A stretch of 64,000 nucleotides of DNA from Candidatus Binatia bacterium (GTDB lineage: Bacteria; Vulcanimicrobiota; Vulcanimicrobiia; Vulcanimicrobiales; Vulcanimicrobiaceae): contig DATKHY010000007.1 in assembly GCA_035544215.1 (NCBI GenBank), positions 248,001 through 312,000 on the forward strand, in the 5' to 3' direction. Numbering within the stretch: the stretch's first letter is position 1; each line of letters starts with the position of its first letter. The notes below the pieces were generated by a model that worked only from the letters and a program-made list of their open reading frames with translations, ran no database searches and was not told the origin of the DNA. Shown here piece by piece: positions 13,146 to 34,193 of the stretch. The position numbers were made by a program, and so were the translations under genes.

Positions 13146-14960
13146 TTACCGCGCCAGCGCCTGGCTTCCGAGCGTCCGCAAGTCGACGCCGTTGTCCGTC
13201 AGGATCGAGCCGTCGACGCGATGCAGCTCGACGATGGCTTGATTGAGATCGGTCTGCGCATCGAGCTCCTGACCGCGGGCCTGCGCGAGCTGTACCTGCC
13301 GCTGGAGCACCAGGAACGTCGTCGAGGCGCCCGCGTGGAACTTCCGCACCTCGCTCGCATACACGGCTTCGGCCGCCTCTCGCGAGCGCCGCGCCGCATC
13401 GAGGCGCGAGAGAGACGACTGATACGCCTGCAGCGCTATCCGCGCCTCGGCGCCGATGCGCACGGCTACGCCTCGCATGAGGATCGCTGCTTGCCGAGTC
13501 TCCTCGGCCGCGACGCCGCGCTCGCCGCGGGCTAAGTTAGCCTGAAGCGGGTAGCCGACGATCAGCGCGACGTTGAAGGTCGGAAAGTACGCCGCCCACA
13601 TGTTGTGATAGGCGAACGCCATCGTGCCCTGCGTCTGCGGCGGCGGCGTCGGACATGCGCTCAACGCGGACGAATTGAAGCACACGCTCGACAAGAACGC
13701 CGGAACGGGGGCCAGCAACCCCGCGAAGCCGTTGCTGAGGTACTGCGCCTTGACGTCGCCCTGCGGCAGCGACTGGTTCTTCGCAAGCGCTCGATCGATA
13801 TCGGCTTGATGTGCCTTGGCTTGCGCCTGCAACACCTCGGGCCGGTGCTGCCGCCCCTCGGCCACGATCGTGGCCAGGTCCGACGGCGTGGGCAGCTGCA
13901 AAACGGACGTCGAGGGAACGAGGTTGGCGCGCCAGATCGGATCGCCGGCGTCGGTCATGACGAGACTCTTGAGCTGGTTTTGCAGCTCGGAGACGTTCTG
14001 CAGCGCCGAATACACGTCGTCGCGGAACGTTTCGACCTGCGTCTCCGACTCGACCGCGTCGACGTTGGCTCCCTCGCCGCGCCGCGCGAGGCGCACGTTG
14101 CTCTGTTGCTGGGCGATGGCCTGCCCCAATGCCTCTTCCTGAATCGCGACGTTGCGCCACGCCGCGACGAGTTGCCAATAGGTGTTCTCGACCTGCGCGA
14201 TCGTATTCGATGCGTCGATCAACGCCTGTGCCGCCTTCGCCTCCTCGTTCACGAACGCCAGCTTCAGCTGACGCTTGTTGGCGTTCATGCCCGCGTTCTT
14301 CAGCAGCGGCTGCGTCACAGCGAGGTTGAGCGTCGCGATGTAATACGGGTTGTAGGCGTCGAAGACGGTGTTGTTATAGGTGCGGCTCTGCTGGATGCCG
14401 GCCTGGTACGTCATGCCGTTCTCGGTCTGGCCGCCGACGCCGTACTGGAAGGCCGACTGGTGCTGGATGATGTTACCCGGACCGGTCGTGAAGATCACAC
14501 CCGGCGTCGAGTTGGGCCCGGGCGAATACCTCCCCACTTCGCCCGGACCTGCCACGAAAGCGTTTTGCGGCGGATTCACGGTGAAGCTCGACGACGGCTT
14601 GAGCTGCAGCTGCACGTCGTACGCGCCCTTGGCTTCCACGATCGTATAGCGCGCAACGCGCACGTTCGACGCAGAAACGGCCAGATCCGGATTCTTCAGC
14701 AGCGCCATCGCAATCGCGTCTTGCAGCGAGATGCCGACGAACGGCTGCTGCGTCACGCCGACGACGTGCGCCTCCGTCGGCGCCACTTCTGGCGCGCGAT
14801 AACCGGGCGCAACGCTGGGCACGACCGGCAGGCGCGGCGATGGAACCGCGGGAGGAAGTTGTGCCGACGTGGGAGGCTGGGCCGACGTGGGCTGCACCGG
14901 CAGCGTCGCGAGCGCCGTGACAGCGATCGCTACGAAGGCGGGAACGACGGGCCGTTTCAC
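13146..14960 (-). CDS. TolC-family outer-membrane efflux channel, copy B
   Basis: Middle of three tandem paralogues, 604 residues, GTG start at 14960, 12 bases after copy A. The signal peptide ends near PTSAQ. The following linker repeats PTSAQPPTSAQLPP, a short internal duplication absent from the others, before SVAPGYRAPE and VGVTQQPFVGISLQDAIA. The body keeps both alpha-barrel repeats and the TTFLVLQRQVQLAQARG segment. The variable loop near residue 150 reads RYSPGPNSTPGVIF. The second variable loop has C427 and C436 before PTPPP. Sharing of rare long motifs with A and C shows descent from one gene by duplication in place. Confidence 0.92.
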   Translation of the reverse strand: MKRPVVPAFVAIAVTALATLPVQPTSAQPPTSAQLPPAVPSPRLPVVPSVAPGYRAPEVAPTEAHVVGVTQQPFVGISLQDAIAMALLKNPDLAVSASNVRVARYTIVEAKGAYDVQLQLKPSSSFTVNPPQNAFVAGPGEVGRYSPGPNSTPGVIFTTGPGNIIQHQSAFQYGVGGQTENGMTYQAGIQQSRTYNNTVFDAYNPYYIATLNLAVTQPLLKNAGMNANKRQLKLAFVNEEAKAAQALIDASNTIAQVENTYWQLVAAWRNVAIQEEALGQAIAQQQSNVRLARRGEGANVDAVESETQVETFRDDVYSALQNVSELQNQLKSLVMTDAGDPIWRANLVPSTSVLQLPTPSDLATIVAEGRQHRPEVLQAQAKAHQADIDRALAKNQSLPQGDVKAQYLSNGFAGLLAPVPAFLSSVCFNSSALSACPTPPPQTQGTMAFAYHNMWAAYFPTFNVALIVGYPLQANLARGERGVAAEETRQAAILMRGVAVRIGAEARIALQAYQSSLSRLDAARRSREAAEAVYASEVRKFHAGASTTFLVLQRQVQLAQARGQELDAQTDLNQAIVELHRVDGSILTDNGVDLRTLGSQALAR

Positions 14961-30832: not shown

Positions 30833-32351
30833 GGCGGTGCCCGATCGCCGCCTCCGCTGCGTCGGTCAGTCGCCCGGACGCGATCAGCTCGCGCGCGGCG
30901 GCGATGTCTGGCGCCGGCGCGCGATCGTCGGTCCACGGCGCAATCCGCTCGCGGACGGCCGCGTAGGCGGCCTGCGTCCCGGCGCCCGAGCGCAGCGGGC
31001 GTCGAAAATCGGTCGCCGCGCAGGCGGCGAGGAGCTCGCAGGCCAGCGCACCCTCGACGTTGTCGAGCACGCGCGGTAGGTTGTTCGCCGACGTCATGCC
31101 CATGCTGACGTGGTCTTCCTGGCCCGCCGACGTAGGAATGGAATCGACGCTCGACGGCCACGCAAGACCCTTGTTGTCGTTGACGAGCGCAGCGGCGGTG
31201 TACTGCACGAGCATCAGCCCAGACTGTAAACCAAGCCGCTGCGTGAGAAAGAGCGGCAAGCCGCGATCCTCGGCGTTGAGCAGCAGGTAGAGCCGCCTCT
31301 CGCCGATCGACGCGAGCTCGCTGACGGCGAACTTTAAGAAGTCAAGCACGAGTGCGACCGGCTCGCCGTGGAAGTTGCCGCCCGAGAGAAACTCGCGATC
31401 TTCCGGGAAGACGAGCGGATTGTCGGTGACGGAGTTGGCCTCGATCTCGGTGACGCGGCGCACGTGCGCGATCGAGTCGCGCACCGCACCGTGCACCACC
31501 GGGATGCAGCGAAACGAGTACGGGTCCTGGACGCGCTCGCACTCCGCGTGCGACTGCACGATCTCCGAGCCGGCGAGCAACGCGCGCAGGTTGCCGGCCA
31601 CGCGCTCCTGCCCGGGGTGGGGCCGCAGGTCGTTGATCCGCCGGTCGAAGACGCGCTCGCTGCCGAGGTAGGCTTCGAGTGAGAGCGCGCCGATAACGTC
31701 GGCCGCGGCCACGAGCCGTTCGGCACGCAAAACGCCCAAGCCGGCAACGGCGGTCATCACCTGCGTTCCGTTGATGAGGGCCAGCCCTTCCTTCGCGCCG
31801 AGCTCGATCGGTTTGAGGCCGGCGCGCTCGAGCGCGACGACGCCCGGCAGCCGCTCACCGTGATAGAACGCCTCGCCCTCACCGATCAGTACGAGCGTCA
31901 TGTGCGCGAGCGGAGCGAGGTCGCCGCTCGCACCGACGGAGCCCTGGCTCGGCACGACCGGCGTGACGCCGCGGTTGAGCATGGCGACGATCGTGTCGAG
32001 CGTCTCCGGCTTGACGCCGGAGTGACCGGCCGAGAGTGAGTTCGCGCGCAGCGCGCCGGTAGCGCGCACGACCGGGATCGCAAGCGGCTCGCCCGTTCCC
32101 GCCGCATGGCTGCGCACCAGGTTGAGCTGCAGCTCGACGGCCTGCGCGGGATCGACTGAGATGTTGGCCAGACGCCCGAAGCCGGTCGTGACGCCGTAGA
32201 TCGCCTCGCCGCTTGCGAACTGCGCGTCGACGAACTCACGAGCGCGAACGACGCGGGCACGCGCCGCTGCCGCGATCTCGACCGGGGCGCCCTGCGCGAT
32301 CGCCTCGAGAGCCTCGAGAGTGAGGCGATGGCCGTCGAGCTCGACCGTCAC
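30822..32351 (-). CDS. hutH: Histidine ammonia-lyase
   Basis: First enzyme of histidine breakdown, releasing ammonia and urocanate. The 509-residue protein carries the Ala-Ser-Gly triad at 141-143 (GASGDLAPLAH), which self-cyclises to the MIO prosthetic group. It also has the conserved YGVTTGFG near residue 52 and QEDHVSMG. The start is GTG 32351, overlapping the TGA of the preceding gene (GTGA), so it is coupled to that unknown gene. Its stop overlaps the end of the TonB receptor gene running the other way. Together with hutU, hutI and a hutF-like gene it gives histidine to N-formylglutamate. Confidence 0.97.
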   Translation of the reverse strand: MTVELDGHRLTLEALEAIAQGAPVEIAAAARARVVRAREFVDAQFASGEAIYGVTTGFGRLANISVDPAQAVELQLNLVRSHAAGTGEPLAIPVVRATGALRANSLSAGHSGVKPETLDTIVAMLNRGVTPVVPSQGSVGASGDLAPLAHMTLVLIGEGEAFYHGERLPGVVALERAGLKPIELGAKEGLALINGTQVMTAVAGLGVLRAERLVAAADVIGALSLEAYLGSERVFDRRINDLRPHPGQERVAGNLRALLAGSEIVQSHAECERVQDPYSFRCIPVVHGAVRDSIAHVRRVTEIEANSVTDNPLVFPEDREFLSGGNFHGEPVALVLDFLKFAVSELASIGERRLYLLLNAEDRGLPLFLTQRLGLQSGLMLVQYTAAALVNDNKGLAWPSSVDSIPTSAGQEDHVSMGMTSANNLPRVLDNVEGALACELLAACAATDFRRPLRSGAGTQAAYAAVRERIAPWTDDRAPAPDIAAARELIASGRLTDAAEAAIGHRLTT

Positions 32352-32824
32352 AAGGTCGCCCAGTTCGGATGCGGCATCGGCGCGTAGGGCGGACCGTTCT
32401 GAATCACGATCGTCTCATGATCGCGGAGCCGAATCGCGCGCGGATCGTGTCCCTGCCAGCGCTTGCCGTCGACCCAGATGGTCAAGCGTTGGCCGCGCTG
32501 AGCGCTCACGGGACCGGCCTGGGTCCAACTCAGCTCCGGACCCCAGATATCGAAGAACTGGCCGAGGTTGAAGCTGCGGCGCACCGGCGATTCGATGTGG
32601 ATGAATCCGTCCGTATTATGCGTGTGCAGCCAGTAAAGGCAGCCCGCCGCTTGCGGCATCCCGATTCCGGCCGGTATAGTGACCGCCCGCCCGCGATCGA
32701 AGATGGCCAAGTAGGTGTGAATGTGCTCGGCTGCACCTTCCTGTCGATCGCAGTGAACGCCGTCGATCGGCAGGCCTCCGAAAAAACTCTGAACGACCAT
32801 GATGGGCGCGATCAAAAACTGCAT
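32348..32824 (-). CDS. Conserved protein of unknown function coupled to hutH
   Basis: The 158-residue protein has a distinctive His/Cys pattern: GVHCDRQEGAAEHIHTYLAI, AAGCLYWLHTHNTDGFIHIE and FFDIWGPELSW, then a small beta domain (RLTIWVDGKRW, HETIVIQNG). The clustered HxH and C-H residues suggest a metal site like that of cupin or carbonic-anhydrase-like folds, though I cannot name a family. I chose ATG 32824 (MQFLIAPIMV). A GTG at 32923 would extend it by 33 residues but would cross the candidate ncRNA promoter. The GTGA overlap with hutH implies a function linked to histidine or urocanate use. It could also be a general envelope protein. Confidence 0.6.
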   Translation of the reverse strand: MQFLIAPIMVVQSFFGGLPIDGVHCDRQEGAAEHIHTYLAIFDRGRAVTIPAGIGMPQAAGCLYWLHTHNTDGFIHIESPVRRSFNLGQFFDIWGPELSWTQAGPVSAQRGQRLTIWVDGKRWQGHDPRAIRLRDHETIVIQNGPPYAPMPHPNWATL

Positions 32825-32855
32825 GGGCGTAGCTTCGTGTGCATAACGGAAAAAA

Positions 32856-32919
32856 CTTGTGGACAGCTTGTGAATTGCCCGTGTGGCGCCTTGTCGCGGC
32901 GTCGTCACCGTGTTACGAT
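32856..32919 (+). promoter_or_regulatory. Sigma70-like promoter with upstream phased direct repeats
   Basis: A -35 TTGTCG (32891-32896), a 17-base spacer and a -10 TACGAT (32914-32919) with TG one base upstream of the -10 give a near-ideal extended promoter. Transcription would start near 32926. Upstream, CTTGTG occurs twice at 32856-32861 and 32867-32872, exactly 11 bases apart, the spacing of tandem response-regulator half-sites. No protein gene follows in a fitting position, so the promoter points to the RNA at 32926-33131. Confidence 0.6.
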
Positions 32920-32925
32920 TCACGA

Positions 32926-33131
32926 GCTTCGAGCTTCAATCGAAGTGCGACGCATGTATCGTTCGCGACCAATGCAAAATGCGTGACACACCGCGATGAG
33001 CGGCGTTCCGCAGCAACGGTCAAACCGCCGGTCGACGTCAGTGGGGCCCTCTAACGAGGTAGCCAAACAGGCGAGGCGCAGGTGAGTGAATACGTCGGAG
33101 CCCGTCGAGCAATCGGCGGGTTTCGTTATTT
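32926..33131 (+). ncRNA. Candidate structured non-coding RNA, about 205 nt
   Basis: This gap has no convincing protein gene but runs from a good promoter to an intrinsic terminator. Simple hairpins visible in order are CTTCGA/TCGAAG (32927-32945), ACGCAT/ATGCGT (32950-32984), CCGC/GCGG (32991-33003), CGGT-CAA-ACCG (33017-33027), CCTC-TAAC-GAGG (33048-33059), GCC-AAACA-GGC (33062-33072) and the terminator stem. A 10-codon reading frame (ATG 32954, stop 32984-32986) is the only notable ORF. I could not match it to 6S, SRP, tmRNA or RNase P signatures. It is transcribed away from the hutH operon. Confidence 0.45.
33098..33131 (+). terminator. Intrinsic terminator
   Basis: The stem CCCGTCG (33101-33107) pairs with CGGCGGG (33114-33120), including one G-T pair, around the loop AGCAAT, and is followed by TTTCGTTATTTCG. 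It closes the candidate RNA and lies 76 bases before the converging WYL gene's stop. Confidence 0.65.
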
Positions 33132-33206
33132 CGCTCGCCTTCTCAGATTTTTCGGCGCGTGGTTCGCGCGGCGGCTCGGACGCTCGTCGCGGCACCTCCT
33201 GTGCTA

Positions 33207-34193
33207 TTAGTTGGCGGGGTACTTGGTGGTGATTTCGCGGGTGAGCGCGGCGATACGGGTGCGGGCCTCCGGGGGATCGAGGATCTCCGCTTGCGCGCCC
33301 CAGCCGAGCGTCCAGCGCACGAGCTCGTCGACATCGGCGACGTAGTAGACGATCTCGACCGATCCATCCGGGCGCTGCTCGACCTCGCGCTCGGCGACGA
33401 TCCGCGCCGCCGCGGCGGCCTTCGCGACACGCGGCGCGAATCTAACGCGCACCGGTGTCGTCTGCTCGCCGTGTAACACGCCGCTGATGGAGGCGGCGGC
33501 GTAGGCCTCGATGCTGAAGTCCGCGGGCCGCGTGAACGTGCGCGCCAGCACGAGCGGCTCGCTCACGCTGTCGACGGCGAACGTGCGCATGTCGCGCCGC
33601 TTGTGATCGTAGGCGACGCAGTAGACACGTCCCGCGTTGATGATGAACCCGTAGGGATCGGCCGTACGCGTGGTCGCGTTGCCGTCCTTGTCGCGATATC
33701 GGAAGCGCACGCTACGCGAGGCGCGCTCGGCCGACGACAGTAGCGCGAAGGCGCGCTCACCGCGCTTGTCCAGCCGAATCTCGGAGAGCCGAAAGGCGAC
33801 GGGCGAGCCGGCCTCGATCCGCGCGCGCGCTCCGCTGCTCGCGCTGCCGACGAGCTTCTCCGCCACGTCGTCGATGGACGCGCCGATCGTTCCGCCGATG
33901 CTAGCCCCGAGCGAGCGCAACGCGACGAGACCGAAGAGCTCGCCGCTGGATAGATCGAGCCGCTTGAGGCTGTAGCCGTCCGCGAAGCGATACGCGTTGG
34001 CCGCGCGATCGAAGTACAGGGGGAATCCCGCGTCGGTCAGGATGGCGAGGTAGCGGCGCAGGCTGCGCGTGCTCGGTCGCCGGCCGCCTTCGGCGACGCG
34101 GTCCTTGAGGTCTTCAAAGGAGTGGCGTGCCTGGTCGATCGCGTTGAGCAGGCGCACGAGCAAGACGACTTTCGACTCGCCCTCGCCGATCAT
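33207..34193 (-). CDS. WYL-domain transcriptional regulator
   Basis: The 328-residue regulator has an N-terminal winged helix (VVLLVRLLNAIDQARHSFEDL, STRSLRRYLAILTDAGFPLYFD, residues 8-65), a linker, and a WYL domain at about residues 155-235. That domain includes SRSVRFRYRDKDGN, DPYGFIINAGRVYCVAYDHKR and DMRTFAVDSVSE, with the WYL triad replaced by a V-Y-C variant. A C-terminal WCX extension (VRFAPRVA, WTLGWGAQAEIL) follows. Such proteins sense oligonucleotides or other ligands and often regulate stress or DNA-damage genes. Its ATG overlaps the stop of the exported-protein gene upstream (ATGA), placing it last after clpC. Confidence 0.9.
   Translation of the reverse strand: MIGEGESKVVLLVRLLNAIDQARHSFEDLKDRVAEGGRRPSTRSLRRYLAILTDAGFPLYFDRAANAYRFADGYSLKRLDLSSGELFGLVALRSLGASIGGTIGASIDDVAEKLVGSASSGARARIEAGSPVAFRLSEIRLDKRGERAFALLSSAERASRSVRFRYRDKDGNATTRTADPYGFIINAGRVYCVAYDHKRRDMRTFAVDSVSEPLVLARTFTRPADFSIEAYAAASISGVLHGEQTTPVRVRFAPRVAKAAAAARIVAEREVEQRPDGSVEIVYYVADVDELVRWTLGWGAQAEILDPPEARTRIAALTREITTKYPAN

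Follow-up and report, generated by a model that had tools for sequence, protein, structure and literature searches.

A conserved stand-alone structured RNA gene in Candidatus Eremiobacterota with DnaA-box-like sites upstream of its promoter

What lies in the 382-nt gap between the ORF158–hutH genes and the gene for a WYL regulator? The gap is part of the stretch of 64,000 nucleotides analysed here (the window). The initial annotation had placed in it a stand-alone, roughly 205-nt non-coding RNA that has a promoter and a terminator. The features of the locus are collected in Table 1. The hutH gene (HAL, PF00221) is on the − strand and is directed away from the gap, and the 158-aa protein (52–66% identity) is encoded beside hutH in most relatives. 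A short dispersed repeat of about 30 bp (GCTCGGACGCTCGTCGCGGCACCTCC...), at window positions 33174–33204, is unrelated to the RNA; it has one more copy in the same genome (C7:638789) and is found in several relatives, with up to 97% identity.

Table 1. Features of the gap and its flanking genes, in window positions.
Feature	Positions	Strand	Basis or remark
Conserved 158-aa protein, no Pfam match, followed by hutH	32348–32824	−	Context; divergent neighbour, start codon at 32824
Box 1, TGTGCATAA (reverse complement TTATGCACA)	32838–32846	+	Exact match to DnaA-box consensus TTATNCACA
Box 2, TTGTGGACA, DnaA-box-like	32857–32865	+	Near 1.7 bits per position in both classes; starts −57/−58 from the −10
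Box 3, TTGTGAATT, DnaA-box-like	32868–32876	+	11 bp past box 2; starts −46/−47 from the −10; conserved in both paralogs
−35 element, TTGTCG	32891–32896	+	Sequence; TTG conserved in homologs
Extended −10, TGt-TACGAT (TG 32911–32912; TACGAT 32914–32919)	32911–32919	+	Sequence; GTGnTACGAT conserved in homologs
ncRNA gene	32926–33131	+	Homology, covariation, fold z-score; start inferred about 7 nt past −10, end at the terminator's T-rich tract
P0, 5′ hairpin, CUUCGA...UCGAAG	32927–32945	+	97.7% of cells paired, 29 sequences
Core: P1 (32954–32959 with 33090–33095) and P1b, three-way junction to P2 and P3	32954–33095	+	R1 model, covariation
P2 arm (GACC...GGUC) with distal helices	32967–33021	+	Helices 3–6 of the 50-sequence alignment
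P3 arm, conserved internal loops (CGUCAGU-GG / CAAACAGGCGAG)	33026–33084	+	Helices 7 and 8; invariant columns
Intrinsic terminator hairpin and T-rich tract	33096–33131	+	Stem 33096–33125, then TTATTTCGCT (TTATTT)
WYL+WCX transcriptional regulator	33207–34193	−	Context; convergent neighbour, same neighbour in relatives

In a DNA search of relatives, the gap sequence turned up in about a dozen genera and, within the genus, in 16 of the 17 further species sampled; the raw tally of 14 genera counts weak matches to the 33174–33204 repeat. For the remaining species (G017), only a second paralog was found. Common to the homologs, once aligned in one orientation, are the boxes upstream, the extended −10, the 5′ hairpin, the core, and the terminator. 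Neither the frame nor the length of the longest internal ORF is constant from homolog to homolog. Thus, a peptide gene is disfavoured, there being no conserved frame, which agrees with the earlier remark that the gap holds no credible protein. At nearly all loci of the window's type (class I), the WYL gene converges on the RNA and the ORF158/hutH genes diverge from it; in G052, another ORF is located between the RNA and the WYL gene. A leader for hutH or for the WYL gene, which the annotation had also discounted, does not fit this orientation and these neighbours and was rejected.

The proposed promoter, TTGTCG-17-TACGAT with an extended −10, is present in the sequence and is conserved in the homologs. 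The −10 hexamer is TACGAT or TACCAT in 30 of 38 class I copies, and TAGCAT or TACCAT in 20 of the 23 copies of the second paralog (class II), while the spacer, 17 nt in the window copy, is mostly 17–18 nt across both classes. A simple consensus scan did not report the window promoter because only 8 of its 12 positions match. The T-rich intrinsic terminator is likewise borne out, as 13 stem pairs are kept in relatives, 11 of them with two-sided changes (helix 9). By both sequence and conservation, the RNA has its own promoter and its own terminator.

The predicted + strand RNA (32923–33131) has a folding energy of −86.5 kcal/mol, compared with −72.8 kcal/mol in shuffled sequences (z = −3.3; one of 200 shuffles folded equally well). 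For the − strand of the gap there is no fold signal relative to shuffles, z = 0.19. RNAalifold with the MAFFT alignment gave 48 pairs, 27 of which have compensatory changes. In the model-independent alignment, two-sided changes are seen in 27 of 48 pairs versus 9.8 in shuffles, none of 500 of which reaches 27, and 96.9% of the cells are paired versus 27–39% after the partners are slid. Furthermore, when 50 sequences were aligned to the model, 37 of the 43 core pairs had two-sided changes, although the fit to the structure biases this alignment towards it. On the + strand, 1344 cells pair, and the paired cells that are G–U number 171. Read on the − strand, only 1186 cells pair, 158 fewer, because the 171 G–U pairs turn into C–A. 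This asymmetry shows that the RNA strand is +, and an RNA on the − strand is ruled out by the fold z-score and the G–U asymmetry together.

From its 5′ end, the RNA has the hairpin P0, the closing helix P1/P1b with a three-way junction that leads into P2 and P3, and lastly the terminator. Conservation is highest in the P3 arm. Least certain are the inner helices of P2 (helices 4 and 5 in the 50-sequence alignment), where about 60% of cells are paired. A kink-turn-like pattern (GACGA...CCGAG), recognized as a sequence pattern, occurs in the middle of P2 in 27 of 62 copies, namely in class II and some class I copies, and is absent from the window copy. Conserved secondary structure with covariation, the mark of a structured non-coding RNA, was thus found, and from these sequence comparisons it is nearly certain that the gap carries a stand-alone structured RNA gene. 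The annotation had named a lack of conservation or covariation in relatives as the result that would count against it; both are present, and its stand-alone RNA of about 205 nt is well supported. The element begins further upstream than the annotation had it, with conserved boxes from 32838.

A pattern scan of public genomes places the hosts in the phylum Candidatus Eremiobacterota. Pattern matches in other phyla failed to score with the covariance model, and viral sequences gave no match. The covariance search found matches in 56 of the 117 genomes of the class and in 60 of the 149 genomes of the phylum, these being mostly metagenome-assembled genomes and the model E-values rough. All of the non-marginal matches belong to the window's own family (f1), where the RNA is present in 18 genera when marginal coding-like matches are left out (weak model matches L099 and L119–L122 were discarded as coding-like). 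The other genera of this family and the two other families of the class gave only chance-level scores, even with laxer filters. As many genera of the same family have no convincing copy, including the single-contig genome G025, this is not a housekeeping RNA. As far as we have searched, the RNA is confined to one mostly uncultivated family of the Eremiobacterota.

The window's own genome has a second copy, at C7:1254749–1254892 on the − strand, with the same anatomy. Model R1, built without class II sequences, gives it 34.7 bits (E = 5e-5); the later scores of 68 and 83 bits are from models that include class II. The core of the window copy has 131 bits with R1, a model that contains this copy. 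The promoter, 5′ hairpin, and terminator of the second copy, all of which are outside the core model, agree with those of the window copy. Genomes with the RNA often have two copies of it, and a permissive search of six well-assembled genomes gave exactly two strong copies in each. In the FastTree phylogeny, the class II copies from five genera (g1, g10, g13, g26, and g37) form one clade; thus, the duplication into class I and class II looks old. In the genus, the class II locus is between nadA, which is divergent, and an OPT transporter gene, which is downstream and co-directional. Tandem copies of the RNA are found by hutH in one relative (L096; G018:C171:13330–13458 and 13683–13820), each with its own boxes and terminator, and a tandem copy in G018 groups apart from the class II clade.

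What controls the synthesis of these RNAs? The consensus TTATNCACA and the action of DnaA as a transcription factor are established (e.g. PMC4447404). Boxes 2 and 3 match this consensus only in the TGTGGA half. Counted from the −10, two TGTG-type boxes are present in both paralogs and nearly all genomes, one starting at about −57 to −59 and the other at about −46 to −48, and most genomes have a third at about −77 to −79. The position of box 1 is conserved in both paralogs. The box positions have 0.9–1.7 bits each, compared with 0.2–0.5 in the surroundings. DnaA boxes, one exact and two partial, are thus located at a conserved promoter-proximal position. Eight genomes contain 15 matches to the pattern YTGTGGA-N4-YTGTGNA, of which 11 are at these RNA loci, and none to its reverse. 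The box 2–3 pair is found only three times in the window's own genome, twice at the RNAs. A pair wider by 1 bp occurs six times, four of them a few hundred bases upstream of dnaA (the own genome included); of the other two, one is in G008 and one is elsewhere. The sequence upstream of dnaA, CTGTGGACAAGCTTGTGGAG, is closely similar to the window's TTGTGGACAGCTTGTGAA. It is quite likely, judging from these sites, that transcription of both paralogs is set through the three boxes by DnaA or a protein of the same site preference.

We propose that the gap encodes a stand-alone structured RNA, about 205 nt long and served by a sigma-70-type promoter and an intrinsic terminator, which would be under DnaA control and act in trans. 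We estimate the probability of this overall reading at about 60%. DnaA, or a protein that shares its site preference, would bind the three boxes, which are helically phased and precede the −35, and would thereby set the transcription of both paralogs, so that the level of the RNA would follow the replication or cell-cycle state. The RNA may then act in trans, chiefly through a protein bound to its conserved internal loops, for which the P3 arm and, in many copies, the kink-turn-like P2 are candidates. It is conceivable, at somewhat less than even odds, that this two-member family, with synthesis set directly by DnaA through the phased three-box array, forms an RNA arm of cell-cycle control in the Eremiobacterota.

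The boxes and the RNA could be explained in other ways. The boxes might constitute a replication origin or a DnaA-titration site similar to datA or DARS, with the RNA an origin transcript or incidental. An exact DnaA box such as box 1 is rare, with 12 in the 3.23-Mb genome, and several relatives have additional boxes upstream. However, dnaA is 1.1 Mb away and has boxes of its own, and the coarse GC skew minimum of G011 is near dnaA rather than at the RNA, so that an origin at the RNA was rejected. Furthermore, the constant distance from the boxes to the −10 at two unlinked paralogs argues for promoter control over either an origin or a titration site, which leaves this explanation improbable. 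Nor do we favour a cis-acting leader or riboswitch with an attenuator terminator, which is equally improbable. Such an element is upstream of the gene it regulates and co-directional with it, whereas the window copy and nearly all class I copies run towards a convergent gene, and the terminator is always a full, separate hairpin. Because class II in the genus directly precedes the OPT gene in the same direction, as it also does in G060, a leader role is possible for that copy; however, in g26 and g37 class II is away from OPT, which is not adjacent there. Least probable of all is a divergent member of a known RNA family. The phylum is deep branching, and model sensitivity drops at such distance. 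However, Rfam 15 gave no match in the whole window at gathering scores, consistent with the lack of any family signature in the initial annotation, and relaxed thresholds gave only chance-level matches in the gap, none near any gathering score. Three divergent representatives of the RNA also had only chance-level Rfam matches at relaxed thresholds, the distribution is patchy, unlike that of a housekeeping RNA, and there is a separate 6S candidate elsewhere in the genome. A known Rfam family was therefore rejected.

The more serious alternative concerns the mode of action. With the same gene and promoter, the RNA could be a trans-acting antisense sRNA in which conserved unpaired stretches pair with target mRNAs, possibly cell-cycle mRNAs. 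The size, the terminator, and the stand-alone locus are compatible with this, unpaired conserved stretches are at hand (AAAC between P2 and P3, and CAAACAGGCGAG), and EcpR1 (PMC4414408) and CcnA (PMC8959179) are precedents for cell-cycle sRNAs. However, the conservation is located in a closed fold with internal loops rather than in a single open seed. Complementarity of the RNA to the dnaA start is no better than in controls, as 150 of 200 shuffles were as good, the shuffles being a rough control that kept triplets. An antisense sRNA is thus rather unlikely, though not negligible. The closed fold, the conserved internal loops, and the kink-turn-like pattern make protein binding somewhat likelier than simple antisense, though by a slight margin, and action in trans mainly by protein binding through the internal loops is itself a tentative suggestion.

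How does this RNA compare with known systems? 6S RNA (RF00013) is also a stand-alone bacterial RNA of about 200 nt, and two copies of it are found in some bacteria. However, 6S RNA is one long hairpin with a central bubble, whereas the window RNA has a three-way junction, and the RF00013 covariance model gave no match to the window RNA above the cut-off. A possible divergent 6S RNA is located elsewhere in the own genome (L124; G000:C7:1357182–1357367, − strand), with 36.3 bits and E = 1e-5, below the Rfam cut-off. CcnA of Caulobacter crescentus (PMC8959179), which we liken by description only, is a small non-coding RNA with a promoter believed to be under a master regulator of the cell cycle, CtrA in that case; unlike the window RNA, it is alphaproteobacterial, is located at the origin, and base-pairs with the ctrA and gcrA mRNAs. 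EcpR1 of Sinorhizobium meliloti (PMC4414408) is a conserved sRNA of the stem-loop type with a link to DnaA and to the cell cycle. However, loop pairing by EcpR1 represses dnaA mRNA, whereas DnaA is the proposed upstream regulator of the window RNA, for which no pairing with dnaA was detected. Orphan structured RNA motifs from comparative genomics (e.g. PMC2864571) are similarly defined by covariation with no assigned function; the window RNA differs in its phased DnaA-box-like array and old paralog pair, and in having no Rfam match.

The kind of gene, a stand-alone structured bacterial ncRNA, is already known, while the family, the paralog pair, and the phased array of DnaA-box-like sites are, within the tests made, new. 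The RNAs are best read as a new family of trans-acting structured RNAs that is probably under DnaA control. A limited search of open-access papers found no described RNAs in Candidatus Eremiobacterota, and a well-supported RNA family is now added to a phylum for which this literature gave no descriptions of regulatory RNAs. Should the proposed DnaA control be correct, the replication initiator would be tied directly to a structured RNA, which would offer a way to test cell-cycle regulation in a lineage that is mostly uncultivated.

The box pair is also seen at other loci. Downstream of the third pair in the own genome (L126; G000:C3:9294) there are a hairpin resembling a terminator and a small ORF, and this RNA is absent there. 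In another genome (L128; G042:C5:22093), the same pair precedes an ORF that resembles minC by eye, which suggests that the element may mark cell-cycle promoters.
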